Part shown: piece after piece, positions 4,434 through 42,020 of the stretch
Layout: each line of letters opens with the position of its first letter
How positions within the stretch are numbered: the stretch's first letter is position 1
Notes under the pieces: model-generated
What the model saw: only the letters and a program-made list of their open reading frames with translations
The model's database searches: none
Told to the model about the DNA's origin: nothing
Assembly (NCBI RefSeq): GCF_004004565.1
Contig: NZ_SACM01000006.1
Span: 124,001 to 188,000, forward strand
Direction: 5' to 3'
DNA length: 64,000 bases
DNA from: Inhella crocodyli
GTDB taxonomy: Bacteria; Pseudomonadota; Gammaproteobacteria; Burkholderiales; Burkholderiaceae_C
Translations under genes and position numbers: made by a program

Positions 4434-4586
4434 CGCTCGCTGCGCTCGGCCCAGCGCTGCGCGCTGTCCAAGGGCGGTCGGCCGGACCGCCCTTGAGCGA
4501 ACCGGGAGGGTTCTCATCCCCAGTCCTCACGCCAAAACAAAACGGCCCTCGAGGGGCCGTTGTGTTTTGGAGCGGGTGAAGGGAAC
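4434..4586. repeat. 183-bp-period tandem repeat, copy 2
   Basis: Near-identical to 4251-4403. The first hairpin has paired changes (AAAGGCGG/CCGCCTTT becomes AAGGGCGG/CCGCCCTT), so both sides of the stem altered together. The second hairpin (about 4535-4567), read on the minus strand, ends in TTTTGTTTT. This copy directly abuts the island attL core and is probably the original terminator of tRNA-Gly, now separated from its gene by the island. Confidence 0.85.
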
Positions 4587-4600
4587 CCGCTCCACATCTC
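4568..4600. other. Left attachment site (attL) of the genomic island
   Basis: TGGAGCGGGTGAAGGGAA (4568-4585) is an exact direct copy of 42002-42019 at the 3' end of tRNA-Gly. Within it, GAAGGGA (4578-4584) is a 7-bp spacer flanked by TGGAGCGGGT and its inverted copy. The island-side arm ACCCGCTCCACATCTC (4585-4600) is the exact reverse complement of the island-side arm at the right end (41996-42011). This is the layout of a tyrosine-recombinase core site. Confidence 0.9.
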
Positions 4601-5007
4601 GGCCCCCTGGGAGCGCCATTGAATCAACCTGCTTTGTATCAGGTCCTTGTACCACCGGATAGGCGCGTTGCCGTGCGGCCAGGGGTGATGTCATGGGCTT
4701 CTGCGTGCTTCCACCAGACCTACACAGCGAGCTCACTCCGCGACGAACAACTGCACCGGACATACCTGACAGCTGAACCGACACCGTGCGCAGCGACGCA
4801 ACTAGCCACTTAGCGTCTAAGCAGTCAGATTTGGCTGGGCGCAATTGGCCGATAGCGGAAATGCGCTTCTCCGATCAAGCTGCCCTGAAGCCGGTTACCA
4901 GACTGACTCGTTTCGGCTAGCTCTGCACTGCGATATGGAGGCAGTACTTCTAATTGCTAGTCGCTAACAAGAATTCAAGCCCGGCCGGCAAGAATTGCAC
5001 CATCTCT
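4601..5007. other. Island left-end noncoding stretch
   Basis: About 400 bp between attL and the stop of the MORN-repeat gene. Open frames here are short, unbiased and unlike known proteins. I see no RNA gene. Arm-type integrase sites could lie here, but no clear repeat is visible. Confidence 0.5.
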
Positions 5008-7945: not shown

Positions 7946-8896
7946 ATGAACCAGATACCGCTCCAAGACCTGCGCGTCACTGCCTGCATCGATCGCGTGA
8001 AGCTGGACCTGAAATTCGCTCAGCCCACCCAAGGCGTTGCCGTCTACCGAACCCTGCGAAGCAAGTGGGTGATCTCGGCTGCCACGGTCCCAGAGGGATT
8101 TGACCCTCTCCGATGCACCGAGTTCAGGCTGTGGTTGAACGATCCCGGCTCTCCGCAAGAGGTTCAAGCGCTGATCGCCTTCTTGGATGCTTGGCGACCG
8201 CTGGCTGAACCAGTGAGGATTTCGGGTCTGGAAGTTGCCGTTGATCTCCGGGCTGTCTCGCCAGACGGGCGAGCGTCATACCCAGAGATCGGCACACTCG
8301 TTTGGAAGGGGCAAAGCAAGCCCCCCAGTGATCGACGAATCGCCACTTGGCGGGAGACCATGCCTTCGGGCGCAGTGGTCCGCCGCTACCAAGCAGTCAC
8401 TTTGGACCGTGAGTGCGCAGATGCATTGAAGCAGGGCTTTTCGCTGCAGTGCGGCAACTTGGGTGCCTCAACGACATCGAGGGTCTACATCAAGACCAAA
8501 GACACGCCTGTTGGCGGAGATGGGCTGGTGGAGCTCCCCATGAGCGAGCAATGCGTGCGCTTCGAGCGGACCTGGACAGGTGACGATTGCGCCATCCGAA
8601 CGCTGGATGATTGGCGCCTCTTTGATTTCAGGGCCCTTGCCACCCAGTTCGGCATGCGCCAGTTCGAGTTCGAAAACCCGCGCAATGCGTACCTCTCTGC
8701 GGGCAAGGTGGACGACGAGCGAGCACGACGAGCGAAGAAGCGACTATCCCGGCGGGGAACGAGGGTTGATGGTCGGTGGGCTATCGCTGTCAGGTCCGCA
8801 TTGCGACGCCTGAACTGCCCCGGCTCCGCTCCTGTATTGAGTCGGGAATTTGGCGAAAAGGACAACAACTTAGCCTTGTTCTCCATTGAGAGCTAG
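7946..8896 (+). CDS. Hypothetical protein, weakly replication-initiator-like
   Basis: A 316-residue protein I do not recognise with certainty. It has alternating hydrophobic beta-like segments with LEVAVDLRA (about residue 94), RVYIKTKD (about 184) and VRFERTW (about 205). These resemble the D-x-R, Y-x-K and R-x-E segments of small Rep_trans/RstA-type replication initiation factors, but a catalytic tyrosine motif is not secure. The C-terminal third is basic (ARRAKKRLSRRG). The start has only a weak ribosome site. It reads toward the GIY-YIG-like gene 71 bp downstream and may be co-transcribed. If the resemblance is real, the island could replicate after excision; this is inference. Confidence 0.5.
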   Translation: MNQIPLQDLRVTACIDRVKLDLKFAQPTQGVAVYRTLRSKWVISAATVPEGFDPLRCTEFRLWLNDPGSPQEVQALIAFLDAWRPLAEPVRISGLEVAVDLRAVSPDGRASYPEIGTLVWKGQSKPPSDRRIATWRETMPSGAVVRRYQAVTLDRECADALKQGFSLQCGNLGASTTSRVYIKTKDTPVGGDGLVELPMSEQCVRFERTWTGDDCAIRTLDDWRLFDFRALATQFGMRQFEFENPRNAYLSAGKVDDERARRAKKRLSRRGTRVDGRWAIAVRSALRRLNCPGSAPVLSREFGEKDNNLALFSIES

Positions 8897-8967
8897 GTCC
8901 AGCTGGGCGGCCCATCTAAATACATTCAATACATACATTGCATCCATTCCGAGAAGTCAGCCACTTC

Positions 8968-9537
8968 ATGTTGAACGAGACAAGGGGCGCAGGAAAAGGC
9001 TCGTTGACTTCCATCCCGCAACAACTTGAAGTGCGGCTGCTTTCTGCTGTGGAGCCACTTGACGTCGGAGTGTTGCCAGACACACCCGGCATCTACTGTG
9101 TCTACAACACAGTCAGCAATCGGCGAGGCGTCGGCCTGGCGACTCGGAGCATTCGGAGACGCGTCCTCCAGCACGTTCGCACTTTGAGAGACCCTGACTC
9201 GCAAATGAGTCCGATGGTGATTGAAGCCAGAAAGCTGGGTTTATCCAGCTTCCGCTTCCTAGTGCTGGAACTGCTCAGCGAGCACCGACCTGCCAATGCC
9301 CGGATGCACCTCCAAGACCGGGAGGGCTGGTGGGCACACGAACTGCAGGTCTTGGAAGAGAGCACAGGCTACAACCTGGAGGCCGGTGGCCAGCGTTCGG
9401 CAGCTTCCCTGTTTCGAGAGCGTGAACGACGGTTGATGGCTTGCCACCCACCTAGGTACGCGCTGCTTCCAGGCATCGATCGGTTCTCGCCCTTGTCTCC
9501 CATGCTTCTGAGCGGGGAGGGGTGCGACAGCCCTTAG
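8968..9537 (+). CDS. Divergent GIY-YIG-like protein
   Basis: The 189-residue product has PGIYCVYN (about residue 35) followed by GVGLATRSIRRRVLQH, a spacing like the first GIY and the YIG-plus-R-x-x-x-H parts of GIY-YIG nucleases, then an F-rich strand (FRFLVLEL). After that come an E-x-W-W helix (DREGWWAHEL) and YNLEAGGQRS, matching the family's E...W...YN layout. The YIG tripeptide is replaced by GVG, so catalysis may be altered or lost. The open frame begins at TTG 8938, but ATG 8968 is more likely. It follows the putative Rep-like gene in the same direction. DNA cleavage or nicking is an inference from fold. Confidence 0.55.
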   Translation: MLNETRGAGKGSLTSIPQQLEVRLLSAVEPLDVGVLPDTPGIYCVYNTVSNRRGVGLATRSIRRRVLQHVRTLRDPDSQMSPMVIEARKLGLSSFRFLVLELLSEHRPANARMHLQDREGWWAHELQVLEESTGYNLEAGGQRSAASLFRERERRLMACHPPRYALLPGIDRFSPLSPMLLSGEGCDSP

Positions 9538-10804: not shown

Positions 10805-12322
10805 TCAGGCGACGGCGTCTTCGACTAGCACAGAGGCTAGAAGCTCATGGTGCTGACGGGCCTCGGAAATACTAAGTTTGAGCCGGTCGCAGAGGCCTAC
10901 CAACTCATCAACCTTTGCAACGATGCGGCGCTGTTCGGCCTCTGGGGGCAACGCCAGCCGAATGGAGTTCAACTTGGCTTGGTTCATCTTTGGCTGTGCC
11001 GTACCAGTAACGTAGGGCTTCAAGTCGATTGCGTTGACGTAAATCTCCAAGTACTTGAGCAGATCCTCCGACACTCCGTCGATCACATGCGCGTGGTTGT
11101 TCACCCAATACTTGCCCCTTGCGATGAATGCAATGGGTGTGCTCCGATTGATCAAATTTGCCCCGTCTTCGCCGATTAGGAGCAATGGCTTGTTGAACAA
11201 GTACCTATCGATCTTGTCAATAACGCCCGACGCGCCGTAGTAGTCGTAGACCTTTGCGCGGCTTTCGCGCTCCACTTGGGAGACAGGCACTCGTTCGCCA
11301 TCGCGGCAAATGGTCGCGTCGCCAAAGGTCGTCCAGCGCCACCCGGTAGGCGGCTCAATACTCGTGGAAGCTCCCGCTTGCCCCGAGACGGCCACACTTT
11401 TTCGCGCGCGCCTCTGCGCCGCTTTGTCTGCTTTGTGCGTAGCGATGCGCGTGAGTAGCGCCTCGGCTGGCTCTTCTGCTTCGTCTTGCGGAACAAGCCG
11501 TCCTGCAATTCCAAGTTGCAAGACTGTTTGCTTCAGCGCATCAACGCTGGCCTCGGTGGTGAACAGCGTATGAAAATGCTCGGCCAATTGTTTCCAACTG
11601 GCGCGGAAGTCGGCGGCGTCGCGGGCTTGGGTGAGGCTGGCGAGCAGGGCCTCCACCAGCCTGGTGTGGGCGGCCTGGACGTCGGCCTGCTCAGCCTCCA
11701 GTTGGTCGCACAGCGCCATCAGTTCATTGACCTTGGCCACGATCCGGTGTTGCTCAGCCGTTGACGGCAGTCGCACACGACGCGCGAAGAGCTTGGCAAA
11801 AACCAGACTCTGAACAGTCGTGCCAGTCTTGACGTCCTCAGCGAGGATTGCACGCTCTGACCCCAACAACCAGAGGCGTAGATACGCTGACTCAATCGCA
11901 CTTTTGGGAGTGAGCGCTTTGATGTCTTGGTTAATGGTGCAGGCCACACGTGTGACCTGGGCCGGCAGCTTGCGTTTGAGGATCCCGCTCCGTCCCACAA
12001 TGAGTACGGAGCCTAAGGGGATCAGATCGAGATTGGTCTTTGCCAGCGCCTCCTGTGTTATGAACATTTCGCTGGTGACGATGTCTCCGGCGTGCATGTC
12101 CTTGGGGGAAACCCACGGCACGTCGCCACCCCAATACTCTGGCCGTGCCATGGAAGGTGTGCTGCCGCCACGCACCGATACGATCTCTTCAAGTCGGAAC
12201 TCAGTCCATGTACTGGTCTGTGGCAGCAGCCGGCCGGTGACGGCCAGCTCACAAATTAGCTGCCGCAGCGCTGGACCGTAGCTAGGCTGAGCCGTGAGTA
12301 CATTCAACAGCGAGGCAGTCAT
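10805..12322 (-). CDS. hsdS: Type I restriction-modification specificity subunit S
   Basis: The 505-residue DNA-recognition subunit directs methylation by M2S and cleavage by R2M2S. It shows the two-fold layout of HsdS. Two target-recognition domains (about 40-165 and 310-460) are each followed by a conserved LPxxAEQxRIVAKV(N/D)EL(M/V)xLCDxLE helix (AEQHRIVAKVNELMALCDQL near 185; AEQRRIVAKVDELVGLCDRL near 475) that sets half-site spacing. It overlaps hsdM by 4 bp (ATGA), so the two are translationally coupled. Both TRDs appear intact. The recognition sequence cannot be predicted from this reading. Confidence 0.95.
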   Translation of the reverse strand: MTASLLNVLTAQPSYGPALRQLICELAVTGRLLPQTSTWTEFRLEEIVSVRGGSTPSMARPEYWGGDVPWVSPKDMHAGDIVTSEMFITQEALAKTNLDLIPLGSVLIVGRSGILKRKLPAQVTRVACTINQDIKALTPKSAIESAYLRLWLLGSERAILAEDVKTGTTVQSLVFAKLFARRVRLPSTAEQHRIVAKVNELMALCDQLEAEQADVQAAHTRLVEALLASLTQARDAADFRASWKQLAEHFHTLFTTEASVDALKQTVLQLGIAGRLVPQDEAEEPAEALLTRIATHKADKAAQRRARKSVAVSGQAGASTSIEPPTGWRWTTFGDATICRDGERVPVSQVERESRAKVYDYYGASGVIDKIDRYLFNKPLLLIGEDGANLINRSTPIAFIARGKYWVNNHAHVIDGVSEDLLKYLEIYVNAIDLKPYVTGTAQPKMNQAKLNSIRLALPPEAEQRRIVAKVDELVGLCDRLKLSISEARQHHELLASVLVEDAVA

Positions 12323-13788
12323 TTGCCCCGCTCCAGCGCCTCAGCTAGCGCCGTCTTCAACTGCTCTCTGAGGCCATGAATGCCCTCCTGCATCCGCGCA
12401 TACTCGACCAGCAGTTGCGCGGGGTCATGGATGACCTGCTCGCCCACATGCGGGTTCTTGCAGTCAAGGTTGTAGTTGCGCGCCTTGATGTCCTCGAGGC
12501 TGACTTTCCAGGCGAACCCACCTTCGATGCGGGCCGCAAAACCGTCTGCTTCGCTGCCCCACCAGGCCTGCTCGGCCGCGAACTCCTCGATGCGCATCGG
12601 CCGCGTCTTTGAATAGCTCTTCACTCCGGCCGGGTATTGATGCTCGTAGAACCAGATGTCCTTGGTCGGTCTGCCCTTGGTGAAGAACAGCAGATTGGTC
12701 CTGATGCCGGTGTAGGGGTTGAACACACCGTTGGGCAGACGAACGATGGTGTGCAGATTGCAGTCGGCGAGCAGCTTTTCCTTGATGCGGCTCTTGATGC
12801 CCTCGCCGAATAAGAAGCCATCAGGAAGCACCACAGCGGCCCGGCCACCGTCGCGCAGCAATTGCATGATGAGCACGAGGAACAGGTCTGCCGTTTCGCG
12901 GGTGCGGAAGGCGGCGGGGAAGTTGGTCTCGATGCCGTCTTCTTCCATGCCGCCAAAGGGCGGGTTGGCCACGATGCAGTCCACGCGGTCCTTCGGTCCC
13001 CAGCCGATCAAGGGCTTGGCCAGCGTGTTGTCGTGTCGGATCTGGTTCGGCACTTCGATGCCGTGCAGGATCATGTTGGTAGTGGCCAGCAGGTGGGGCA
13101 GCGGCTTTTTCTCCACGCCGTGGATGCTGGCTTGCAGCACGCGCTCGTCCTCGGGCGTCTTCACATAGTGGCGGCGCTTGTGCTCGATGGTGCAGGTCAA
13201 GAATCCGCCGGTGCCGCAGGCGGGGTCCATGACCTTCTCTTCGAGCTTGGGGTCGACCATGCGCACCATGAACTCGGTGACCGGGCGTGGCGTGTAGAAC
13301 TCGCCGGCATTGCCTGCGCTTTGCAGGTCGCGCAGCAGCTGTTCGTACATGTCGCCAAAGGCGTGGCGTTCTTGCGCCTTGTTGAAGTCGACGCCTTCCT
13401 GAATCTTGTTGATGACCTGCCGGATGAGCTGGCCGGACTTCATGTAGTTGTAGGCGTCTTCGAACACGCCGCGCACTACGAAGGCGGCTGGCGTCGTGCT
13501 GTAGGTCTCCAGCTTCTGCAGCGCGGGGAAGAGCTCGTTGTCGATGAAGCTCTTCAGCTCGTCGCCGGTGATGCCTTCGGGGTCGGCCGCCCAGTTGCGC
13601 CAGCGGTACTGCTCGGGCAGCGGTGAACGGTAGGCGTCGTCCAGCAGCTCCCATTCCTGCTCGCGGTCGTCAAAGATTTTTAGGAACAGAAGCCAGACGA
13701 GCTGGCCGATGCGCTGGGCGTCACCGTCGACACCGACATCCTTGCGCATGATGTCTTGGATGGATTTAATGGTGCTGCTGATGGACAT
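12319..13788 (-). CDS. hsdM: Type I restriction-modification DNA methyltransferase subunit M
   Basis: The 489-residue adenine-N6 methyltransferase works with HsdS to protect host DNA. An N-terminal HsdM_N helical domain (about 5-140, starting ISSTIKSIQDIMRKDVG) is followed by the N6_Mtase domain with SAM motif DPACGTGGFL (about 187) and catalytic NPPFGG (about 273). Length is normal for the family. It sits 87 bp downstream of hsdR and overlaps hsdS, giving the order R-M-S. Confidence 0.96.
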   Translation of the reverse strand: MSISSTIKSIQDIMRKDVGVDGDAQRIGQLVWLLFLKIFDDREQEWELLDDAYRSPLPEQYRWRNWAADPEGITGDELKSFIDNELFPALQKLETYSTTPAAFVVRGVFEDAYNYMKSGQLIRQVINKIQEGVDFNKAQERHAFGDMYEQLLRDLQSAGNAGEFYTPRPVTEFMVRMVDPKLEEKVMDPACGTGGFLTCTIEHKRRHYVKTPEDERVLQASIHGVEKKPLPHLLATTNMILHGIEVPNQIRHDNTLAKPLIGWGPKDRVDCIVANPPFGGMEEDGIETNFPAAFRTRETADLFLVLIMQLLRDGGRAAVVLPDGFLFGEGIKSRIKEKLLADCNLHTIVRLPNGVFNPYTGIRTNLLFFTKGRPTKDIWFYEHQYPAGVKSYSKTRPMRIEEFAAEQAWWGSEADGFAARIEGGFAWKVSLEDIKARNYNLDCKNPHVGEQVIHDPAQLLVEYARMQEGIHGLREQLKTALAEALERGK

Positions 13789-13875
13789 GGGGTGGGCGGA
13801 ATGCGTCGTGAACGGCTGCCCTAGCGGGCGGCCAGAAGGTGTCAGAGCGCTCGGGTTGAGCGCTGAATCTCAGTG

Positions 13876-16248: not shown

Positions 16249-16510
16249 GCCGACATGATCCCTTTTGGGGCATTTTGCCGGGCTGACCATGTTCAGCTGC
16301 CGGTCAGATTTACGGGTCTTGGAGACTCTTTCATCCGCTGGTCAGCCGTTTGAGGCGCAGAGCTGCAGTTCGCATTAGGTCCAACTACGGACCGCTTTCG
16401 ACAAGCAGCGTACCGCCGTTAGTTGCAGCTTTAGGCGAGCGCAATGGGTGCGCTCTGGCGACCCCCAAAAGGACTGGCGCGGGACTTGCTTCTACTCCGG
16501 GGCAAGGCCC

Positions 16511-23028: not shown

Positions 23029-23051
23029 GCGAAACCTCCTTCGCGGTCCCC

Positions 23052-28567: not shown

Positions 28568-29002
28568 ATGACCAAAACTGCCAGCAGCCCCAAGCTCCGC
28601 CTAAACGAACTTTTGCGCCGCCGCATGCTCGACCTGCCCGGGCTGACCAACGCGGAGATTGCCCGCGCACTGGGGTTGCCCAGGCCCAACGTGGTGGCCA
28701 TGATCTTGAGGGGACGCATGAAGCTCCCTCTGACCCGGCTGCCCGCGTTGGCTCGAGTCCTGGAGGTCGACCCGGTGTGGTTGCTTCGGGTCACTCTCGA
28801 CGAGTACACGCCCGCGCTTTGGCAGGTGATTGAGGTGGTGGTCGGTGCTGACGCCCTGCTGTCAGCCCGAGAGCGAGCGCTCATTGAATTTGTACGCACG
28901 CACGCTGGTGGCGCTGACCCTGACCTTCTGAGTGCCCCAACCTTTCGCGAGCAACTTGCCCTGCATGCGTCGGGCGCGATGGTCAGTAGCAAAACAGGCT
29001 GA
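28568..29002 (+). CDS. XRE-type helix-turn-helix regulator
   Basis: 144 residues with GAGGAGGACC before the ATG. A helix-turn-helix is visible at about 25-65 (GLTNAEIARALGLPRPNVVAMILRG, read in parts), of the Cro/C1 type, followed by LPALARVLEVDPVWLL, the usual XRE fourth/fifth helix region. The C-terminal half (about 75-144) is helical and probably dimerises. It precedes zorA by 579 bp on the same strand and is divergent from the KAP gene, so it may control either or both. Confidence 0.8.
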   Translation: MTKTASSPKLRLNELLRRRMLDLPGLTNAEIARALGLPRPNVVAMILRGRMKLPLTRLPALARVLEVDPVWLLRVTLDEYTPALWQVIEVVVGADALLSARERALIEFVRTHAGGADPDLLSAPTFREQLALHASGAMVSSKTG

Positions 29003-31657: not shown

Positions 31658-31676
31658 TCCAAGGGAGTGCTGAGCG

Positions 31677-32447
31677 ATGTTCACTTCGCAAGCCCGGCCA
31701 CCTAAGCGAGCGCGGGAGGAAGGGGAGAAGCCGTTTTGGATCTCGTTTTCCGACTTGATGTCGGCATTGATGGTCCTGTTCTTGGTCGCGATGACGGTGG
31801 CCCTGCTGGCCGTCACGAAAAAGGTCTCTGACGCTGAACGGGAAGAGCGTGAGCGAACCGAGGCCATTCAAGACCTGATGGGCGAGATAGAGAAGGTCGT
31901 CACCGCCAAGGAGTTCGAAGGCATCAGGGTGATCGGCAACACCATTGACTTCGGCCCCAAGGGCAACTTCGAGAGAGAAGGCCAAAACGTGTTGTCAGTT
32001 CCTCAGCAGCAGGTTCTGAGAGCGTTCACTCCCGTGCTGCTGGACAAGCTTCGCCAGAGCGAAGCCGGGAAACGGTGGTTCAAGCGTGCAGTGGTGGAAG
32101 GCTATGCCAGCCAAACAGGCTCGTACCTGTTCAACCTGAACCTGACGTTGGAGCGCAGCGGTCGTGTGCTGTGCGAGTTGTTGCGAGCTGCCCCTAACCC
32201 GACTGAGACCCTGTCGCTCGAGGATCGCAAGTTGATCGCGACCAAGTTCTTCGTTGGAGGCGCTTCGTTTAACTCGCTGCGTGCTGACGACAGCAGCCGT
32301 CGTATTGAGTTCAAACTGGAGTTCAAGTCGCGCCAGGAACGCGAGCTTGAGGCCGCCAACCCAACGGTCAATGTGGACGAGGCCACCTTGGTCCGAGCCC
32401 TGGACGTCAACGAGCCATGCCTGGTCCAGAATCGATTGGGTCGCTGA
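31677..32447 (+). CDS. zorB: Zorya defence protein ZorB (MotB/OmpA-like)
   Basis: 256 residues. A single membrane helix near the N-terminus (about 20-46) carries the proton-binding Asp26 in WISFSDLMSAL, as in MotB. A periplasmic OmpA-like peptidoglycan-binding domain follows (about 75-235), with VEGYASQTGSY, NLNLTLERSGRVL and a C-terminal RRIEFKLEF. It anchors the ZorA5B2-type motor to the cell wall. It starts 19 bp after zorA and its end overlaps zorC by 31 bp, so the genes form an operon. Confidence 0.94.
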   Translation: MFTSQARPPKRAREEGEKPFWISFSDLMSALMVLFLVAMTVALLAVTKKVSDAEREERERTEAIQDLMGEIEKVVTAKEFEGIRVIGNTIDFGPKGNFEREGQNVLSVPQQQVLRAFTPVLLDKLRQSEAGKRWFKRAVVEGYASQTGSYLFNLNLTLERSGRVLCELLRAAPNPTETLSLEDRKLIATKFFVGGASFNSLRADDSSRRIEFKLEFKSRQERELEAANPTVNVDEATLVRALDVNEPCLVQNRLGR

Positions 32448-34177
32448 GCCGACTATTGGCCGCCGCCATGGAACCGCAACGCGTGTTCCATGCGCCAGTG
32501 TGGGGCGACCCCAAAGCAATGAGCTTGGCTTTGAAGGAGGTACGCAAGGCCTTTGGGTCGGAGGACACCGTTAGGCCAAACTATGACGTGCTGCAGCGCG
32601 CACTGAAGGGCTTTGCCCAGACTCAGACCGTTGCCAATTTCAATGAGTTGAAGTACGTCTGCTACGGGGTTTCGGTGCCAATTGCTGATGCAGGGTGGAG
32701 GCTGATCGACAGCCCGCCCCTCTTTCAGCGGGTATTGAATCTGGTAGACGCTCGGCAGTCCCAGGCTAAGCAGTATCGGCGCTGCTACCAGGGTCTTTTG
32801 AATGCCTACTTGTGCTTTGACAAGCTGGCTCCGTCTGTACCTCAATCGTCAAGCAATTGGTCCAAGCTGGGGAGCTTTCTTGACGAACGCTTGCTAGACA
32901 TCCGAAAGGCTAGCCGCACGCGTGGGGAGCCGCCCAATTGGCTGGAACTGCTATTCAAGAACCGCAATCTGCTGGGCGCTGATCCGTGCAAGCCCTATGC
33001 GCGTTCACTTATGGCGGGTGATCAAGGGCCGCTGCGTTCGGTGTGCGAAGGTTTAGGCATCCCCGACAGCTCTTGGGTCTGGAACGAAGCATTGTTGGCC
33101 TACATCGCGCTTCTATGCGACAGCAGCGACCGAGCGTTCCGGGACGGTCTTGACGGAGCATTGAGCTTGGTAAACGGACGGACGCAACTGCGGATGCCTG
33201 AGACCATTGCGCGCCAAGCGACCGCCATGACAACGGTGCGCTATTCGCGGTGCGCCGATAGGCCCGAGCACATTGAGCTCAGGGATACCGCTGTACAGCG
33301 CGTTGGTAGCCCCTGGCTGGCTCGCGCTGCATGGGACGCCCACGTTGGCAATGAGCCAGCCCGCCAGATGGTGGAGGGATGGCTAAAGCGGAGATTGATC
33401 AAGGACTTCTTTGAGCTACTTGCTCAGGATGGTGGTGCCGATGTTCGGCGCTTGAACTACTGGCTCAAGTGGGAGCCGAAGATCACAGACATGTGGTTTG
33501 TGCTCGGAGCAGACGCACGCCGCAATCCGACCGCGCCGTTCAAAGCATTGAGAGAGCGCATGGAGGGGCGGCGGAGGGTTCTTGACGAGCCCGATGGGAC
33601 CAACAACGCATTTGTGATGCGCATTGGTCCCTTGGTAGTGATCGAGTTCGGTCAAACTGGAAACGCTTGCTACGTATTTGCGGCCAGTGACTTCAACACC
33701 GATCTGGAGGCTGAAGTCTTCACGCTCAATGGCAGGAACCCGCTAAAGCAAAAAATCAACGCAAGCCGTTTAAGTCACCAAGGAAGTTGGGAATCGAAGT
33801 TCGATTTCGATCTTGCTCGGCTGCTACAGCGAACCCCACCGACGAAAGGGGACTTGTACAAGGCACGCGCTCCGGAGGTGGCGCCATACCGCGCGACGAG
33901 TGGCCTTCGAGAACCGATGGTTGTTAGGCCGCAAGTGACCCAGCCACCTGTTGGGATGAACCGATCTTCCGCCTTGGCGCCAAACATCGTGTTCCAGATC
34001 AAGTCCTACTGTGTGCCTCTAGGGATCAGGTTCGAGGACAAGCGCGATCGCTCCGGTGGATCGTTTTGGGTGTACATCACAAACCGCGACCTGCACAGAA
34101 CATTTGTTCGAGCCTTGGAGGTACATGGATTCGTGTTTGCCGAGGGCAAAGGATTCTGGTTCAAGGACAAGAACTAA
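32417..34177 (+). CDS. zorC: Zorya type I protein ZorC (EH-signature)
   Basis: 586 residues of the EH_Signature family that defines type I Zorya. ZorC is a cytosolic DNA-binding effector acting with ZorD after motor activation. Recognisable segments are RRLNYWLKWEPKITDMWFVLG (about 352-372, in parts), VVIEFGQTGNACYVF (about 413-427) and the C-terminal domain with VYITNRD. No classic nuclease motif is seen. ATG 32417 lies inside zorB (31-bp overlap); an ATG at 32468 is an alternative. It ends 2 bp before zorD. Confidence 0.88.
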   Translation: MPGPESIGSLSRLLAAAMEPQRVFHAPVWGDPKAMSLALKEVRKAFGSEDTVRPNYDVLQRALKGFAQTQTVANFNELKYVCYGVSVPIADAGWRLIDSPPLFQRVLNLVDARQSQAKQYRRCYQGLLNAYLCFDKLAPSVPQSSSNWSKLGSFLDERLLDIRKASRTRGEPPNWLELLFKNRNLLGADPCKPYARSLMAGDQGPLRSVCEGLGIPDSSWVWNEALLAYIALLCDSSDRAFRDGLDGALSLVNGRTQLRMPETIARQATAMTTVRYSRCADRPEHIELRDTAVQRVGSPWLARAAWDAHVGNEPARQMVEGWLKRRLIKDFFELLAQDGGADVRRLNYWLKWEPKITDMWFVLGADARRNPTAPFKALRERMEGRRRVLDEPDGTNNAFVMRIGPLVVIEFGQTGNACYVFAASDFNTDLEAEVFTLNGRNPLKQKINASRLSHQGSWESKFDFDLARLLQRTPPTKGDLYKARAPEVAPYRATSGLREPMVVRPQVTQPPVGMNRSSALAPNIVFQIKSYCVPLGIRFEDKRDRSGGSFWVYITNRDLHRTFVRALEVHGFVFAEGKGFWFKDKN

Positions 34178-34179
34178 AC

Positions 34180-37100
34180 ATGTTTGACAGACTTTTTGGT
34201 CGAGGCAGTTCCGCCACAACGCATGCACGCAGCGCGTCACCCGTAGTGACGGAAGAGGGGCTCGTTTATCCCGCCCCCAACGGCGACGCAGCTGCGTGGC
34301 TGAGCAGTCCTTTCCAGTTCGAACACGCGGCCGATTTGGGCGCGCGGCTCGGACAGGTCTTCGTCGAAGGGTTTGGCACTCGGCGCCAAGGAGACTTTCT
34401 GCTTGGCTGGGGGGACGTGTACCAACTGTTGGCCCACCCCGAACTTGCCAGTTATCAAGAGGCCCTTTCGATACCGCCGCAGACAACAGCTCGTCCACGG
34501 CTTTTGAGCCGCGGCGCGTTGATGGATTCGGACTTCTCAGTGCTACTCGATAGCTGGGTCGACGACCAAGGACGTCCTCTTCAACCTGCGCCTCGCTTGC
34601 TCGGTCGCGTGCTGACCGTAGGCAACGAGCGAAGCTTGGTACCCGCTGAAGTTGACGAATTGCTGAGCGAGATTGCTTCGTTCCACGCCTGCCCGCCCGC
34701 AGCGAGAAGTTTGGCGTTCAAGGAGCAGGTCTTTGGTCGCTTGCGTCGATTGGCAAAGGCGACGGGCTGTCCTGTCTCCGACTATGTCGAACGCACCGTC
34801 GTGCTGACGCCCGAGAAGTTGCAGCTGAGCTTAGATGGGCGCGGCGATGCTGACGGCAAATTGGTGGAGGTCACCCCGGGTTTTGAGGATGCGCCTACTG
34901 AATGGCTGTCGGTGTTTGATCGCATGCCACTTCAAGACAGCTACGACGTACCTGATGGCGCGTCGCTAGTTCGTGTGGTGCTCACGCCAGAGGTTAAGTC
35001 GGTCCTGGCTGAGGTTAAGGCGATGCCGGGGCGGCGAGTGGCGGGCCACCGAGCACAGGCATTCGTTCGAAATCCCTTTGCGGTGCTTGGTGATGCGGCC
35101 AAGAGTGTGATCGATGCCGAGCAGTTCGAGGAGGCGCTAGAAAACGCCGGCATTCACTTCACCCGATTCACGCCGCGCGTTGAGCGTGGCGCACAGGGTG
35201 AGGTTGTGCGAGTGGCCTTGATCGTCGAGACCTTGGCACCGTTGGGTGTTCAGTCTGAACCCGTGTGGCTAGAAGAGCCGAGGCATCTCGATACCTTTGT
35301 CTCAAAGCTAGACGAGGCCTTGACCTATGGCGCGCAGTGCTTCCGCTGGAAGCAACATGAGTTGGAGGTAGTGGGCGAGTCCATCGAGCATTTGGGTCTG
35401 ATGAGCGCATGGCTGCGAGAGTGGCTACAGCCAACTTTGTGGACGGCCGATGAGGTGCTTGACATCTCCCGCTACGCCGAACGCATCGAGGGATTTGGCG
35501 AAGAGACGCCCTACGTCACACCGGTCATTGCTCGAACAGACTCGGGAAACAACTGGTTCGAGGGCAACGTCACTGTAGGACTCAAGCTAAAGCCTGCGGG
35601 CGGTGACGAGCCTGCATTGGTGCCCTATCGCTTTGACGAGGTTCCGTCTCTGGAAGAGGCAGTGGGTCAGGCTGAACGTCAGGGCCAAGACACCGTGCGC
35701 CTACCCGGGCTGCAAAGGCCCGTGCCCTTACAGGACGCAAAGCGTGCTGTAGCCGCCTTGGCGAAGGCGGTCATTGAAGTTCGAAAGCAAGAGTTCGAGC
35801 CGACCGAGGCGGGAGGTGTCAGTCGTCCGAAGAAGCGACTGGTGGTCAAGCGCAACCTCGACGAAGTTGATTACAACGAGGAACGCGCCGACTCTTTGCG
35901 TTGTCTGTCCGAGCAAGAGCCGTGGTTGCCAAGCACCCTTCGACCGGAGATCCAGCTCAAACCGCACCAACTGGAGGGCGTGGCGTGGCTGCAGCACTTG
36001 TGGGAGGCATCGCCAGACCGTTGCCGTGGAGCGCTGTTGGCCGACGACATGGGCTTGGGCAAGACCTTGCAGCTCTTGACTTTCATAGCTGCGTGCTTTG
36101 AGAAGAATCCGACGCTTGCGCCTGCCCTTGTAGTGGCGCCGGTAGCTCTGCTAGAGAACTGGAGGCAGGAGCTTGAGCGATTCTTTTTGCCCGGCACCTT
36201 GCCCCTGCTGATGCTGTACGGCGACTCGCTCAAAGCACTTAGAGCTGGCAAGCATGATGTGGATGCGGAGCTACGACACCAAGGCGTGACCCGCTTGTTG
36301 AAAAAGAACTGGGTGGGTGATGCAAAGCTGGTTCTGACCACCTACGAAACGATGCGCGACCTGGAGTTCGCATTGGCAGCTCAGCCTTGGTCAGTGATGG
36401 TTTGCGACGAGGCCCAGAAGATCAAGACACCAGGCGCGATGGTTACGCGTTCGGCCAAGAAGCAGCAGGTCCGATTCCGCATTGCTTGTACAGGCACACC
36501 GGTCGAGAACACCCTGGCGGATCTCTGGTGCTTGTTCGACTTCATCCAGGCCGGGATGCTGGGAGCGCTGAATCACTTTTCGCGCACTTACCGCCAACCA
36601 ATCGAAGCGAAGACGCCTGAACAGCGGGCGAAGGTGGCAGAGCTGCGCGCCTTGATAGAGCCGCAGATCAAGCATCGAAAAAAGATTGACGTTGCGAAGG
36701 ACCTACCAACTCCCGTTGAGGAGGCTGCCTGCAAAGCTTTGCCAATGTCGGTCTACCAGCGGCGTTTGTATGACGGGGCCATGCGCGTGCTTCAAGAGCA
36801 ACGAGCCACCAATCCCACGGCGCAGCTTCAGGCACTTATGGCAATCCGCAAGATCTGCTCTGACCCGCACGGACATGCCGAGAGCGACGTTCGAGCGATT
36901 TCCGTACAACGCCTGGTGAATGAGTCACCCAAGTTGGGCTGGTTGGTCGACCTGCTGAAGGGGCTGGCTGCCCGGCCAGCTGATGACCACAAGGTCATAG
37001 TCTTTTGCGAATTCCGCGAGTTGCAACTCGTGCTTCAGAGGGTCATCGCGGCGTTCTTTGGATTCGCACCGAGCATCGTTAACGGTGACACGACTGCTGA

Positions 37101-37461
37101 TCCCAGGGCGTCCGAAGGGCGTCAGCAGCTGATAGATCAGTTTCAGCGGAAGCAGGGCTTCAACGTCATCATCCTGTCCCCTCTTGCTGTTGGATTCGGC
37201 GTCAATATCCAAGCCGCAAACCATGTCGTTCACTTCACTCGAACGTGGAACCCGGCGAAAGAGGATCAAGCGACCGCTCGGGCGTACCGAATTGGACAGA
37301 CTAGAACGGTGTCGGTTTACTACCCAGGAGTCGTCGCCGATGGCATCAAGAGCTTTGATCAAACACTTGATGAACTGCTTGGCCGAAAGCGCGCCCTTGC
37401 GGCGGACATGCTCAACGGCTGCAGCGACTTGAGGGTTGGTGACTTCGCCGAACTCATGTGA
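34180..37461 (+). CDS. zorD: Zorya type I helicase-nuclease ZorD
   Basis: 1093 residues. A large N-terminal regulatory half (about 1-590) precedes an SNF2-family helicase: LKPHQLEGVAWL, Walker A DDMGLGKTLQ (about 615-624), DEAQ box VCDEAQKIK (about 741), CTGTPVENTLADLW (motif III), and C-terminal VIVFCEF, ILSPLAVGFGVNIQ and DQATARAYRIGQ (about 1030). ZorD is the DNA-degrading effector of type I Zorya. The frame opens at 34066 inside zorC, but ATG 34180, two bases after the zorC stop, gives MFDRLFGRG and is chosen. It is the last operon gene and appears intact. Confidence 0.92.
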   Translation: MFDRLFGRGSSATTHARSASPVVTEEGLVYPAPNGDAAAWLSSPFQFEHAADLGARLGQVFVEGFGTRRQGDFLLGWGDVYQLLAHPELASYQEALSIPPQTTARPRLLSRGALMDSDFSVLLDSWVDDQGRPLQPAPRLLGRVLTVGNERSLVPAEVDELLSEIASFHACPPAARSLAFKEQVFGRLRRLAKATGCPVSDYVERTVVLTPEKLQLSLDGRGDADGKLVEVTPGFEDAPTEWLSVFDRMPLQDSYDVPDGASLVRVVLTPEVKSVLAEVKAMPGRRVAGHRAQAFVRNPFAVLGDAAKSVIDAEQFEEALENAGIHFTRFTPRVERGAQGEVVRVALIVETLAPLGVQSEPVWLEEPRHLDTFVSKLDEALTYGAQCFRWKQHELEVVGESIEHLGLMSAWLREWLQPTLWTADEVLDISRYAERIEGFGEETPYVTPVIARTDSGNNWFEGNVTVGLKLKPAGGDEPALVPYRFDEVPSLEEAVGQAERQGQDTVRLPGLQRPVPLQDAKRAVAALAKAVIEVRKQEFEPTEAGGVSRPKKRLVVKRNLDEVDYNEERADSLRCLSEQEPWLPSTLRPEIQLKPHQLEGVAWLQHLWEASPDRCRGALLADDMGLGKTLQLLTFIAACFEKNPTLAPALVVAPVALLENWRQELERFFLPGTLPLLMLYGDSLKALRAGKHDVDAELRHQGVTRLLKKNWVGDAKLVLTTYETMRDLEFALAAQPWSVMVCDEAQKIKTPGAMVTRSAKKQQVRFRIACTGTPVENTLADLWCLFDFIQAGMLGALNHFSRTYRQPIEAKTPEQRAKVAELRALIEPQIKHRKKIDVAKDLPTPVEEAACKALPMSVYQRRLYDGAMRVLQEQRATNPTAQLQALMAIRKICSDPHGHAESDVRAISVQRLVNESPKLGWLVDLLKGLAARPADDHKVIVFCEFRELQLVLQRVIAAFFGFAPSIVNGDTTADPRASEGRQQLIDQFQRKQGFNVIILSPLAVGFGVNIQAANHVVHFTRTWNPAKEDQATARAYRIGQTRTVSVYYPGVVADGIKSFDQTLDELLGRKRALAADMLNGCSDLRVGDFAELM

Positions 37462-37816
37462 TTCGCTTCAGCAGTACGGCTCATGACAGCCATCCCTCCT
37501 TTGGCTGCTCCAGAGCGACTGCCTTCAGGGCCCGTACTCAGAAGCACTGTTTTGCATGCCTCTTAAACAGATTTGGATTCCTGCATCTATGCATGCTGGT
37601 CTTCCGATGAGCGGCTAAGCCGATGCTCCTATCTCCGCCATCTTTGCCGCCACAGTTGGCTGGAAGCAGGAGTGCTTGGTTGAGTGGCGGTTCGAGTCCC
37701 AGGCTCCCCCCCGCGCCTGGCGCCTTGAGTACTTCGTCGTGCTGGGCTTGCCAATTTTGAACATTCCAGGATCTATCCATGCGGCATAAGTTGCGCCGTT
37801 TCGCATGAGGCCACCT
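37462..37816. other. Gene-free stretch after zorD
   Basis: 355 bp. No convincing frame. A GGTTCGAGTCCC string near 37691 resembles a tRNA T-loop, but its stem does not pair and no other arms are present. It presumably carries the promoter of the next gene. Confidence 0.5.
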
Positions 37817-39160
37817 ATGGACAAACAGCTTCTCGACTTCTTCTCAGACCCGACCCTGGTGGACCTGCTGGAGCAAGTAAAGAGCAGCAATGACATCCTC
37901 ACCCTCCTGACGCCGCGCGAGAACCAGCATTCGGACCTGTTGGCGTGGTGCCTGAACGCCCGAGAAGGACACGGTCAAGGAGACGGACTACTGAAGGACT
38001 TCTTGCTCGCGGTCTTCAAGCAGTCAACTCAAGTTGAGCCTGGTGACAAGCTCTACGGTCGAGGTCTGACCCGTGACTTTGTGCGTGCATGGAAGCCGGC
38101 GCGGATCGTCACCAGCAGCTTTGCTGGAGCCATTTGTCTTCGCGAATACAGCCTGCCTAAGTCAGGCGATGGCGTTGGCGGTCGCCTGGATCTTTTGGTC
38201 GTCGACCCCGACAACCGCATACTCGTTGTTATCGAGAACAAGGCCGGTGCGAGGTTTCGGCCCGGGCAGCTAGAGGGCTATTTGGAGGCTGTGCAGAAGA
38301 GTCTTTTAAGCCGAGCTGCATTTAAAGACTTCCACGTTGCATTCGTGGCCATGGATCGCAACTGGGACACATCTGAGGAGGATGAAGGCGATAGCAATGG
38401 CGACGACCTAGACGGTCGCTGGGCGAAGCTGGATTACAGCTGGCTGAGGGCTGGCGCTCAGCGTGCTGAGGTCGCTGTCAGGAGGGGGAACCAGGCTGCA
38501 GCTTTGCTGCTCTCGTATTGCCGGGCTCAAACGGGATTTGAGTCGGAAGAAGAGAGTCAGATTTCGCGCAAGGCACAAGACCTGGCGGTTCGCTACCCAG
38601 GGGTCGTGAACGAGATTAAGCGCGTCGCTCGTGAGTTGAATCGGCCTGAGGTCTGGACGCCCGGCTTGCTCTCGCCAGAGAACACAGATGGACAGCTGCT
38701 TCGCCTCTATCTGCAGCATGAGGAGGCTTTGAACCGACTCATCGAGCTGCCGCCCTTGCACTTGCTGCATGCCAAGCTGGCCGAGCAGTTTCCCGCCCTT
38801 GAGAGGAAAGGTGAGTACGAGCTGGGCCGTGTCAAGTCGGCCTATTGCTTGCCGCTTGAGTTCGACATTCCGCTGGCCGACGACTTCTGGCCTCTCTTCG
38901 TGCGGGTACGACACCTCAATGTTGACGCAACAGTTGGCGCCAAGTTCCGTGTTCGATACGAGTGGCATCCAAGCCGGGTTCCCGACATCAGAAAAGCTGA
39001 GATCTGCGCACTTGTTGCCAAAGCTTTCCCAGCGGCCGCTAATTCCGAGGGGCGAGGCCGAGTCCTCGTACTCATGGATGAGATGGTGGAGGGAGTAGAC
39101 GCCGCCGTTCGTTGCCTCAAAGGTCTACTTGAGCGCACGGAAGCGGGCTTTCGCAGCTGA
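37817..39160 (+). CDS. PD-(D/E)XK nuclease superfamily protein
   Basis: 447 residues from ATG 37817 (GAGG six bases before it; ATG 37805 is an alternative). The layout is that of the PDDEXK_4 family: ENQHSDLLAWCLNA with HGQGDGLLKDFL near the N-terminus, then GGRLDLLVVDPDN (about 129-141, catalytic Asp) and LVVIENKAGA (about 145-154, E-x-K) followed by QLEGYLEAV. The rest is mixed alpha/beta with no named domain. It is a likely endonuclease of defence type, placed between Zorya and the integrase. The target is unknown. Confidence 0.8.
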   Translation: MDKQLLDFFSDPTLVDLLEQVKSSNDILTLLTPRENQHSDLLAWCLNAREGHGQGDGLLKDFLLAVFKQSTQVEPGDKLYGRGLTRDFVRAWKPARIVTSSFAGAICLREYSLPKSGDGVGGRLDLLVVDPDNRILVVIENKAGARFRPGQLEGYLEAVQKSLLSRAAFKDFHVAFVAMDRNWDTSEEDEGDSNGDDLDGRWAKLDYSWLRAGAQRAEVAVRRGNQAAALLLSYCRAQTGFESEEESQISRKAQDLAVRYPGVVNEIKRVARELNRPEVWTPGLLSPENTDGQLLRLYLQHEEALNRLIELPPLHLLHAKLAEQFPALERKGEYELGRVKSAYCLPLEFDIPLADDFWPLFVRVRHLNVDATVGAKFRVRYEWHPSRVPDIRKAEICALVAKAFPAAANSEGRGRVLVLMDEMVEGVDAAVRCLKGLLERTEAGFRS

Positions 39161-39166: not shown

Positions 39167-39532
39167 TTAGTGGGCTTCACTGGTTATGCCAGCGAGCTTG
39201 GTCGCGTCAAAGTTGTGCCACCTGCCTTGGTTGATGCGGCGCTGCACGTGTTTTTTGAACTGCTCCGGGCTTAGCTGACGTGTTCGCTTGTGACGGCCTG
39301 AGTTGCATCGAAGGCATGCCGCGGCGATGTTGGCTCGGATGTCCTTGCCCCCATCCTTCCGAGCTACGAGGTGCTCCGCTGTGCATTGCAGTTGCCTGAC
39401 AACGGCCTGAGGCAGTTCAAGACTGCCAAGTTCTAGAGGCGACTTTTCCCACATGGGGAGTAGGCAATAGCAGCAGCGGTAGTGCTGACGGTGAAAGGCG
39501 GCTTGACGATGCTTTTGAGTGCGATTTGGCAT
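39167..39532 (-). CDS. Small HNH endonuclease
   Basis: 121 residues with AGGA eight bases before the ATG. A zinc ribbon formed by CCYC (about 20-23) and CLRC (about 72-75) surrounds the HNH core CTAEHLVARKDGG (about 50-62) and NIAAACLRCNSGRHKR. This compact McrA-like HNH fold nicks or cuts double-stranded DNA. It converges on the upstream PD-(D/E)XK gene with a 6-bp gap and is followed by the tandem array. It could be defence or a homing-type remnant; no intron or intein context is seen. Confidence 0.85.
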   Translation of the reverse strand: MPNRTQKHRQAAFHRQHYRCCYCLLPMWEKSPLELGSLELPQAVVRQLQCTAEHLVARKDGGKDIRANIAAACLRCNSGRHKRTRQLSPEQFKKHVQRRINQGRWHNFDATKLAGITSEAH

Positions 39533-39880: not shown

Positions 39881-39893
39881 CGGGTTGACCCAC

Positions 39894-41918
39894 TCAGTCG
39901 CGTCGATGTTTACGCCGCAATGCGTCCTTGACGGCATTCAGACCGGCATCGCAATCGAACACTGCGACTCGCGAGATTGGACTGAACTGCAAGGTCTCAA
40001 TGGCTTCAACGATTGGGCTTCCGGGTTCAAATCGAGCTTCGTCAGCGGTGTATTGCTTCGAGGACATCGTCTTGCCGCGAGAGTGCCCCATGATTTGGTT
40101 CACGGCGCGAGTCTCCCCCAAGCTCCAAACCAAACGGTTGCTCACTGTGTGCCTAAAGCTGTGGAAGACCTTCCTGCCGTTTCGGGCAAGGCCTTTTGAC
40201 TTCAAGAACCGCGTGAACCACTTCGTAGCGTCCTTGCCGTAGCCCTTCACTGGGTCCCAGCGCAGCTCTGGAAACAAGCGGTCGTGGCCAGCTTGCAGCA
40301 GGGATGCTCGCCACTCAAGGAGGCCGAGCCGGACCAACTGGCTGTGGACTGGGATCTTGCGCCGTGACTGGGAGTTCTTGATGCGCTTCAGCGCTGCATC
40401 TTCCCGAGCGCTGATGCCAGGGCCCGTAAGCTCGCCATCACCACTTGGCTCCTTTTGGTCAGCGACGCCATCTTCAGGGTCATCAGCTTCCGTAATGTCG
40501 ATGACCCAAGTGCCCCCAGGCATCTGCTTGATGTCCTTGAGGCTCAGCTGTGCAAGCTCATTGATTCGAGCGCCGGTGAACAGCCCGAGAAGTGGAAGCC
40601 ATGTGTAGTAAGGCATCCACTCTCTGTAAGTGCCTTTGGCCGTCAGTTGCCCCTTGCCGGCAAGGAACCAATCCGCCGAGAAGATCTTGGTGAGGTCTTC
40701 ATCATCAAAGGGGCTGCGCTTGTCCTCGTTCTTCGCAGCCTTTCTGCTTGCGGTTGCGGCTCGTCCAGCCGCGCCACCGCCGACGAGGCCATGAGCGTGA
40801 TCGGACGACGTCCAATCCTCGCGTGCTAACCAGCTCAGCCAGCCACCAAGCCATTTCATACGCTTTGCTTGCTCAGCAGCTGAGAGCCTGGGCCAGTTCG
40901 TGCCCTGCACGGCAGCGATCGATTCAGTGACCGAGTGGGTTCCCATGCGCAAGCGGATCTTGTTCTCATTTGCTGGCACCTGGGGCAGCAATTCGTCGCG
41001 ATATCGCCTGACCATGTCGCGAGTTAGGTCGCGACCGCACAGATCTGATCCAACTAGTTCGAGAAAGAGGATGCAGGCGGCTTCAACACGCCGACTTTGG
41101 TCATCGGCTCTGGGCCGGGCGTGGTCAGACAGGAAGAGAGGGATGCTCGTCTTCAGAGGGCGCTTGAACAACTCAGGAGTCTGAGCCGACTCTGAAACCC
41201 TTCGGGTGTGCTCACGCTGCGCCGGCGTGATCCGCGTTGCGATGCGACCTCGCTCATGATCGACGTCAGTTGCCGCCGCCCAAAGATCTCGCGGGCCGAC
41301 ATCAATGGGCTGGTCTGGTGCAAACACGTTCGACGGGTCGTCTGCGTCGTCGAGCAGAACGATGCAAGCTGGTCGCCCTGCCAGCAATGCTGAGGCTAGC
41401 TCTGCGCCATCCGGCACAGACAAAACTGCGCTCATGCGAACGAACGCTGCTTCGCTCGGCATCTTGTGTGGTGGGGGAACAATCAGGCTGTAGGCACCTC
41501 GGTCGTCAATCACGTCTCGGTCGAGATTCGACCTTTTGAGCACGTACCCCGAAAGCCCGACGGCCCTGACGAACAGCTGTAGCCGACCCTCGGCTGCGGC
41601 AAGTAGCAGCGCTTGAACCCCAAGCCCAGACACTCTGGCCGCGGTCTCAAGATCGAGGTGGCCCTTAGCGCTAAGCAGGGGCGAGCCTACTAGGGCTCGG
41701 TCGATATCAAACTCAGGGGAGGAAGCCATTCGCTCCAGATCAAAAAGCTGCTGCCGCCAGCTGGAGAGCAACTGGCCGGCGACAATTTTGGCGAGCGCTA
41801 GTTCCTTCGTGCCGGTGCTTCGGATCAGCTCACGCTGCCCTACTTGCTTTCGCAAATGTTCCGGCACCGCCAACCTGGCGACGTAGATACCACTGGGGCG
41901 ACGCTGAAGTCCATCCAT
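39894..41918 (-). CDS. Tyrosine site-specific integrase of the island
   Basis: 674 residues, AAGGG before the ATG. The N-terminus has the DUF6538-type arm-binding start (RRPSGIYVARLAVPEHLRKQVG). A long middle region and SAM-like core-binding domain follow (about 255-370). The catalytic domain has Arg in GLFTGARINELAQL (about 443), HSFRHT (about 586-591), GHSRG (about 612) and the nucleophile Tyr in SKQYTADEA (about 622). All catalytic residues are present. It reads away from tRNA-Gly, 84 bp from the attR core. It would catalyse integration into and excision from the tRNA 3' end. No excisionase is recognised. Confidence 0.95.
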   Translation of the reverse strand: MDGLQRRPSGIYVARLAVPEHLRKQVGQRELIRSTGTKELALAKIVAGQLLSSWRQQLFDLERMASSPEFDIDRALVGSPLLSAKGHLDLETAARVSGLGVQALLLAAAEGRLQLFVRAVGLSGYVLKRSNLDRDVIDDRGAYSLIVPPPHKMPSEAAFVRMSAVLSVPDGAELASALLAGRPACIVLLDDADDPSNVFAPDQPIDVGPRDLWAAATDVDHERGRIATRITPAQREHTRRVSESAQTPELFKRPLKTSIPLFLSDHARPRADDQSRRVEAACILFLELVGSDLCGRDLTRDMVRRYRDELLPQVPANENKIRLRMGTHSVTESIAAVQGTNWPRLSAAEQAKRMKWLGGWLSWLAREDWTSSDHAHGLVGGGAAGRAATASRKAAKNEDKRSPFDDEDLTKIFSADWFLAGKGQLTAKGTYREWMPYYTWLPLLGLFTGARINELAQLSLKDIKQMPGGTWVIDITEADDPEDGVADQKEPSGDGELTGPGISAREDAALKRIKNSQSRRKIPVHSQLVRLGLLEWRASLLQAGHDRLFPELRWDPVKGYGKDATKWFTRFLKSKGLARNGRKVFHSFRHTVSNRLVWSLGETRAVNQIMGHSRGKTMSSKQYTADEARFEPGSPIVEAIETLQFSPISRVAVFDCDAGLNAVKDALRRKHRRD

Positions 41919-41995
41919 CTGCTAACCCTTTGTATGAGGGCGCTGTAGCAGAGGGTCTAAGTGCAGAAAAAGCCGTTACGGCTAGCGCACTTACG

Positions 41996-42020
41996 GAGAT
42001 GTGGAGCGGGTGAAGGGAAT
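41996..42020. other. Right attachment site (attR) inside tRNA-Gly
   Basis: TGGAGCGGGTGAAGGGAA (42002-42019) is the 3' end of tRNA-Gly and is duplicated at 4568-4585. The island-side arm GAGATGTGGAGCGGGT (41996-42011) is the exact reverse complement of the left island arm (4585-4600), and both flank the 7-bp spacer GAAGGGA (42012-42018 here). Confidence 0.9.

Follow-up and report, generated by a model that had tools for sequence, protein, structure and literature searches.

A tRNA-Gly island of Inhella crocodyli with mirrored ends that predict a symmetric attP core

The DNA analysed here ("the window") comprises 64,000 nt of Inhella crocodyli (assembly GCF_004004565.1, contig NZ_SACM01000006.1, positions 124,001-188,000, forward strand) and contains an island of about 37 kb at the 3' end of a glycine tRNA gene, the cargo of which includes anti-phage defence genes. 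The layout is that of a tRNA-island: an intact tRNA-Gly(CCC) gene lies on one side, its 3' fragment on the other, and an integrase gene adjoins one end. The 3'-terminal 18 bp of the tRNA gene (TGGAGCGGGTGAAGGGAA) are repeated exactly at both boundaries, as had been stated in an earlier reading of the window made from its letters alone (the sequence-only reading). GC content is 0.65-0.74 in the flanks and 0.49-0.65 in the island interior. Coordinates of all features are collected in Table 1.

The island-side arms of the two ends, ACCCGCTCCACATCTC (distal) and GAGATGTGGAGCGGGT (proximal), each occur at a single position on the + strand of the window. Exact matching confirmed that they are reverse complements over 16 bp around GAAGGGA, as proposed before; pair 17 is mismatched. 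The attP had also been called perfectly symmetric, which is true of the arms (16/16) and not of the 7-bp spacer between them, since the latter is not palindromic. In the tRNA, this spacer covers the 3' strand of the T-stem and extends one base beyond it in both directions. In junctions assembled in silico, symmetry around GAAGGGA amounts to 16/16 in attP of the circle, 13/16 in attL, 7/16 in attR and 4/16 in attB. A match of 16/16 at the given register has a chance probability of about 4^-16; when the distal flank was shuffled 500 times, no match as good arose. Inverted core repeats around 7-bp overlaps are described for lambda, SGI1 and other systems in PMC2297512. The sequence of the island ends contains both elements of such an arrangement (16/16 arms and a 7-bp spacer), with binding and cleavage at these sites being predicted.

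The integrase contains a Phage_integrase catalytic domain (PF00589, E 8.8e-10; PHROG integrase, 1.7e-21) preceded by an N-terminal DUF6538 domain (PF20172, residues 4-57, 39.5 bits against a cut-off of 27). Its frame is intact, and R451, H586, R589, H612 and Y623, which we take to be the catalytic residues of tyrosine recombinases, are invariant in seven homologues.

Island-free relatives were examined as had been proposed in the sequence-only reading. In three of five other genomes of the genus (G002, G003 and G004) the left flank joins the tRNA gene directly, supporting tRNA-Gly as the target; in G001 and G005 no match to the left flank was obtained beside the tRNA. Matches to flank and tRNA overlap by 18 bp because of where the query sequences end. 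The 18-mer itself is identical in G004 only, with a two-base difference in G002 and G003 (GCGAT for GTGAA). Repeats and contiguous flank thus uphold the proposed island limits. They do not fix them to the base, because the crossover cannot be placed within the shared sequence; it is predicted to fall in the 7-bp spacer.

Table 1. Features of the island and its borders (window coordinates)
Feature	Coordinates	Strand	Remarks
Intact tRNA-Gly(CCC)	42002..42075	-	ARAGORN; 3' end 42002-42019 is the proximal att repeat copy
Distal copy of 18-bp att repeat (attL)	4568..4585		exact repeat
Third exact 18-mer copy	4385..4402		outside island, in tandem repeat 4251-4402 + 4434-4585
Proximal core arm	41996..42011		exact match; 10 bp tRNA 3' end + 6 bp island
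Predicted 7-bp strand-exchange spacer GAAGGGA, proximal copy	42012..42018		dyad centre; left edge of many relatives' repeats
Predicted 7-bp strand-exchange spacer, distal copy	4578..4584		dyad centre
Distal core arm	4585..4600		exact mirror of 41996-42011
Candidate integrase arm-type site, distal, TACAAGGACCTGATAC	4636..4651	-	TAC-N10-TAC
Candidate integrase arm-type site, proximal, TACAGCGCCCTCATAC	41932..41947	-
Integrase, 674 aa	39894..41918	-	DUF6538 N-terminus + Phage_integrase domain; start 83 nt from tRNA 3' end
Terminator-like hairpin in the tRNA-integrase gap	41966..41983	-	island-borne
Hairpin, probably the tRNA's former terminator	4533..4566	-	now past distal island end; found in sequence, role putative
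HNH endonuclease-like protein	39167..39532	-
PDDEXK_4 nuclease	37805..39160	+	PADLOC candidate PDC-S26, partial match
Zorya type I	29582..37461	+	ZorA 29582-31657, ZorB 31677-32447, ZorC 32417-34177, ZorD 34066-37461
HTH_3 regulator	28568..29002	+	clusters with frames of mirror islands L204 and L228
KAP-type NTPase	26414..28192	-	PADLOC candidate PDC-S49, partial match
UmuDC-like pair	22576..24410	+	Peptidase_S24 22576-23028; IMS-family polymerase frame 22899-24410
S1/P1 nuclease	21743..22525	-
Avs2-like protein	17626..21510	-	best match residues 17-870 of 1294
Type I restriction-modification	10805..16290	-	HsdS 10805-12322, HsdM 12319-13788, HsdR 13876-16290
Weak homing-endonuclease match	8938..9537	+	one GIY-YIG
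316-aa protein	7946..8896	+	clusters with frames of 8 other islands (9/35 bounded islands)

Related islands and their ends

The survey of the order detected DUF6538 (threshold E <= 0.001) in 58 genomes out of 399, 52 of them with matches above the cut-off; that of the family gave 84 out of 299 (77 above), and the 14 control genomes gave none. Altogether 120 loci (designated L) were fetched, comprising 60 of 75 rows of the order survey and 60 of 102 rows of the family survey, picked by rank and frame length. Among the 115 loci with at least 400 nt upstream, 77 have a tRNA within 400 nt and 38 have none that was found there. With one shorter locus added, the nearest tRNA is co-directional with the DUF6538 integrase in all 78 cases and ends 56-220 nt before it. 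The closest integrases in the fetched set (L228, 48%; L217, 42%; L221, 41%; L216, 38%) all reside at tRNA-Gly(CCC). Whole-genome searches with the window integrase (E <= 1e-30), its own genome counted, gave two matching genomes in the order (399 searched) and one in the class (369 searched). Used as a single query, it retrieved no relative from the genome_contigs or viral_contigs collections and only distant relatives from plasmids and phages; with a profile, 47 loci were recovered from genome_contigs, 46 of them taken further (L278 was omitted), and viral_contigs added 2, both taken further. No mention of DUF6538 was found in the literature searched.

Both ends were mapped for 57 rows with DUF6538 islands, 28 at tRNA-Gly(CCC) and 29 at other tRNAs. 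Distal ends were not found or assigned for L216/L235, L227/L247, L233, L243 and L264, and L262, the ends of which could not be extended, was left out of this survey. Eleven of the 57 rows, representing 10 islands, have an in-register mirror (at least 10/16), and all of them are at tRNA-Gly(CCC). None of the 29 rows at other tRNAs has one, their best score being 8; in five of these (L084, L088, L112, L118, L133) the repeats span 45-92 nt, nearly the whole tRNA, so that the register test is of little use there. Mirror scores are 16 for the window, 15 for L251, 14 for L204, L228 and L236, 13 for L234, 12 for L217 and L248 and 11 for L240 and L261 (L221 is the same island as L236, and L232 the same as L228). 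L261 is mixed: its outer bases are mirrored and its inner bases are T-loop copies. Perfect symmetry was also considered as a rule for the whole DUF6538 family and had to be rejected, as 17 relatives score 2-8/16 in the same register and no non-Gly row reaches 10.

Islands at tRNA-Gly display three arrangements of their ends, namely mirror, T-loop copy and shifted mirror. In the T-loop copies of Burkholderia and its kin, 9-11 of 14 positions are identical to the tRNA arm in the same register, compared with 5-8 in mirror islands except L261. Shifted mirrors are found in the enteric islands L242, L245, L257 and L258, which reach 11-13/16 at shift 6. Further ones were detected in L141 and L182 (p < 0.02), L220 (p 0.022) and the Burkholderia-type L244 (p 0.048), some of which may be due to chance, given 57 tests. 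L226, L241 and L262 do not clearly fit any of the three arrangements. In L288 and L302, from the same genome as L261, att copies lie 39 kb apart and the distal one is followed by an apparent second island end (CATCTCTATAAGTGATTGATCC), possibly reflecting tandem islands.

Length of the att repeat, measured in 33 rows by a search requiring at least 15 nt, is 17 nt in 15 rows and 18 nt in 5, the other 13 spanning 16-92 nt. Since the spacer (7 bp) and the 10 nt up to CCA add up to 17 nt, identity in the 17-nt rows begins at the left edge of the spacer. In all 28 rows compared, both ends have the same variable spacer base (TCCCTTC or TCCCATC); the remainder of the 17-mer was imposed by the search, and in 8 rows the ends were paired by hand.

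Covariation between the arms was examined by permutation, with the mirror class defined by at least 7 matches at the inner ten positions and L261 excluded; L262 was included here, and L239 was left out, its arms being equal to those of L237. In the outer 8 bp (columns 11-18), which are not part of the tRNA, nine mirror islands have 46 of 72 positions matched against a permuted mean of 33.1, and 62 of 20,000 permutations reach this value, counts that overstate independence because related islands enter more than once. Eighteen non-mirror islands have 36 of 144 matched in these columns (permuted mean 39.9), that is no excess, and the total of 82 observed in all 27 islands was reached by 142 of 20,000 permutations. 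At the inner ten positions 81 of 90 are matched and 82.3 expected from permutation, a comparison that is uninformative because all islands share the tRNA sequence.

Besides the core, TAC-N10-TAC repeats recur inside the island ends as candidate arm-type sites. Within 110 nt they are present in the mirror islands (L261 included) at 10 of 10 distal (0.14 expected) and 8 of 10 proximal ends (0.23 expected); the motif had been noticed in the same sequences before counting, so that the expectation is not blind. Counted from the spacer, they lie at -67 to -69 and +63 to +64 in the window island, L228, L236, L234, L217 and L248, and at -78 and +78 in three enteric islands. T-loop-copy islands have them at 2 of 10 distal and 6 of 10 proximal ends, and regions at non-Gly tRNAs at 12 of 70 proximal (1.7 expected) and 2 of 29 distal ends (0.6 expected). 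By eye, and uncounted, sequences close to TAAGTGCTTGATT (proximal) and AATCAATGGTTTGCG (distal) were seen in several mirror and Burkholderia-type islands, resembling an extra inverted pair outside the core arms.

In a phylogenetic tree of 34 integrases, the window integrase pairs with that of L228 (support 100/99) and falls into a supported set of ten rows, consisting of six mirror islands and four ungrouped rows. With the mirror class delimited as in the permutation test, labels of end arrangement change twice for the mirror, twice for the T-loop copy and once for the shifted mirror; all three jointly require 3 changes, a number never so low in 200 shuffles, on a tree with 11 unresolved inner branches out of 31, with long branches for L241 and L264 and with a tRNA-Arg outgroup that does not lie on one side of a branch.

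Weighing the attP reading against alternatives

We consider that the integrated island is moved by its own DUF6538 tyrosine integrase and that attP of the predicted circle has a core formed by the 16-bp inverted repeat around GAAGGGA, with a probability of about 0.8. The mirrored ends likely mark the place of binding and cutting by the integrase, the pattern being shared with related islands, and the comparison gives the attP reading good support. The strand-exchange region and symmetric core put forward in the sequence-only reading are accordingly backed by the repeats and by the related islands.

Several observations weigh against this reading. The in-register mirror is missing in 17 of 28 tRNA-Gly rows and in all 29 others, and in L240 it is barely above shuffles (p 0.034). 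The nearest relatives score 12-14/16, so the final two matches in the window could be chance or drift, and independence is overstated in the covariation counts as said above. The distal TAC repeat is placed elsewhere in four mirror islands (-101 in L251, L240 and L261; -44 in L204), and L204 and L261 have no proximal one. Arms of 16 bp exceed the half-sites of well-studied relatives, which are shorter. The scanned proteins included none recognisable as an excisionase, and excision, binding and cleavage are all predictions.

The strongest competing explanation, which we regard as unlikely, is that the perfect mirror is a mutational by-product: a near-palindrome in the circle would have been corrected by template switching, without functional benefit. 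From the nearest islands, at 14/16, only two changes would be needed, and as a single strand the 39 nt can form a hairpin of 16 bp (-19.4 kcal/mol, z -8.6). However, mirrors are present in ten islands with differing outer sequences (e.g. GAGAYRTGG, AAACTATGG), and outer bases of nine islands match better within than between islands. A by-product would account better for the last two base pairs than for the whole pattern.

Far less probable is a different left end. A third exact 18-mer, overlooked in the sequence-only reading, is located outside the island; the genome carries exactly three copies. It belongs to a tandem direct repeat (152 bp, 94% identical, spacing 183), both units of which terminate in the att 18-mer. 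The true end might hence be at 4385, or the 183-bp unit 4385-4568 might be a second small insertion, and the exactness of the copy speaks for this. Yet the bases next to it, TGCTCGG, make no mirror arm and instead match the start of GGGAATGCTCGG, found downstream of tRNA-Gly in three island-free relatives. The junction TGGAGCGGGTGAAGGGAATGCTCGG suggests tandem duplication via GGGAAT, common to the tRNA and to the sequence downstream of the relatives' tRNA-Gly, which would be the simpler explanation.

A reading of the inverted repeat as a terminator of transcription or another RNA hairpin at the island end, and not as a recombinase site, appears slightly less credible still. On its own, attL could fold into a hairpin of 10 bp (-12 kcal/mol), but this hairpin is not followed by a T-run, the 16-bp arms are opposed only in the circle, and other terminator-like hairpins lie near both ends (Table 1).

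The hairpin past the distal end resembles one found directly 3' of the tRNA in genus relatives without an island there, and likewise in L006/L036; the tRNA's own terminator was therefore probably displaced by the island. In 12 of 78 family tRNA-integrase gaps a terminator-like site is found by a strict pattern, compared with 0.8 in shuffles. The island hairpin behind the rebuilt tRNA may be a substitute for the displaced terminator or a shield for the integrase gene.

Symmetry by mere chance is a negligible alternative: 10 of 16 bp of one arm are dictated by the tRNA and nothing further favours it, against the odds of about 4^-16 for the free arm, the shuffles and the near-mirrors in relatives.

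Cargo of the island

Cargo of the island is mainly anti-phage defence (Table 1). The zorA, zorB, zorC and zorD genes occur together (PADLOC E 3.5e-226, 7.2e-84, 2e-169 and 0, respectively); their products are below the NCBIfam cut-offs of ZorA1, ZorB1, ZorC and ZorD and above that of ZorA_3. The segment 21743-25955, including the S1/P1 nuclease and UmuDC-like genes, has a GC content of about 0.62-0.65, above most of the island, and was perhaps acquired separately.

The 316-aa protein has no significant Pfam match, and no solved structural relative was found for its family; a weak match to Rep_trans (E 0.0052) was obtained with one of five members, and the protein may initiate replication of the excised circle. 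Relaxase, type IV secretion and conjugation genes gave no Pfam match in the 30 island frames that were scanned. Small proteins with the motif GRVSTxxQ, presumably serine resolvase-like, belong to a frame cluster of 20 of 35 bounded DUF6538 islands (e.g. L250 5538-6267), some frames of which look spurious; the window island is outside this cluster.

Proposed mechanism and relation to known systems

Upon excision, the two ends would join into an attP with the 16-bp perfect inverted repeat as its core, and the two arms would serve as half-sites for two integrase monomers in opposite orientation. Strand exchange with the tRNA gene would take place in the 7-bp spacer, a position indicated by the repeats, with cleavage there being presumed. 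One attP arm carries the tRNA 3' end ACCCGCTCCA, by which integration would rebuild the tRNA. The other arm is free to vary, and in the clade of the window it appears to have been turned into a mirror of the first, 6 non-tRNA base pairs included. The TAC-N10-TAC repeats further inside both ends are probable arm-type sites for the N-terminal domain. The asymmetric spacer would determine orientation; which way the reaction runs would probably depend on the arm sites together with a directionality factor, and no such factor was identified in our analysis. Directionality had been attributed in the sequence-only reading to the differing outer chromosomal arms. This is not supported, as the chromosomal side varies from island to island and TAC-N10-TAC lies inside the ends of most mirror islands; arm-type sites, asymmetric spacer and a directionality factor are a more likely basis. 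We infer that the island is still mobile.

The island is a new form of tRNA-directed integration, a kind of system already known. ICEclc likewise has a large integrase (IntB13) adjoining a tRNA-Gly 3' end and an 18-bp repeat; unlike ICEclc, no conjugation gene was matched among the scanned frames of the window island. In loxP and FRT, inverted arms surround a short spacer, and these sites act as identical partners. The same design is seen in dif according to PMC8371274; in the window only attP is symmetric, attB is not. SGI1, as given in PMC2297512, is alike in its 18-bp att sequence, proposed 7-bp overlap and inverted core repeats. It differs in having 8-bp imperfect repeats and a non-tRNA site (thdF), whereas the island of the window has 16-bp perfect ones at a tRNA 3' end. 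According to PMC2951348, KplE1 IntS shows the co-directional order of tRNA and integrase (the STI shape) and predicted autoregulation. The window island resembles KplE1 and the lambda-type attP in this order, in having the recombination region before the integrase and in its candidate arm-type sites; it differs in the DUF6538 N-terminus, and its arm sites are predicted from sequence.

The T/acceptor stem junction is the crossover subsite J of Islander (PMC4383910), and the third region of Williams 2002, as cited in PMC8371274, is placed alike. According to the latter paper, the tRNA 3' region is without dyad symmetry. Such a target makes the crossover hard to place in islands at tRNA 3' ends. 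Compared with subsite J islands, the element of the window mirrors the acceptor end in its attP and thereby provides the symmetry that the tRNA lacks. A description of a mirror attP was not found in titles and abstract starts of the literature searched, most subscription papers being outside reach.

Tentatively, islands at tRNA 3' ends might solve the asymmetry of their target in alternative ways: by a mirror of the acceptor end in the clade of the window, by a T-loop copy (TTCGAT) that makes attP similar to attB in Burkholderia, and by a mirror shifted by 6 nt in enteric islands, with lineages switching between these modes. If this is true, an integrase of the mirror type would need one half-site sequence and a 7-bp spacer, and the T-loop half of attB would be bound loosely. 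The clade puts definite sequences to the proposed half-site, the 7-bp exchange region and the arm-site candidates, and natural variants exist at many positions, so the prediction is directly testable. In Inhella crocodyli, the island also carries type I restriction-modification, Avs2-like and Zorya I genes, and the limits required to search for its excision are given here.

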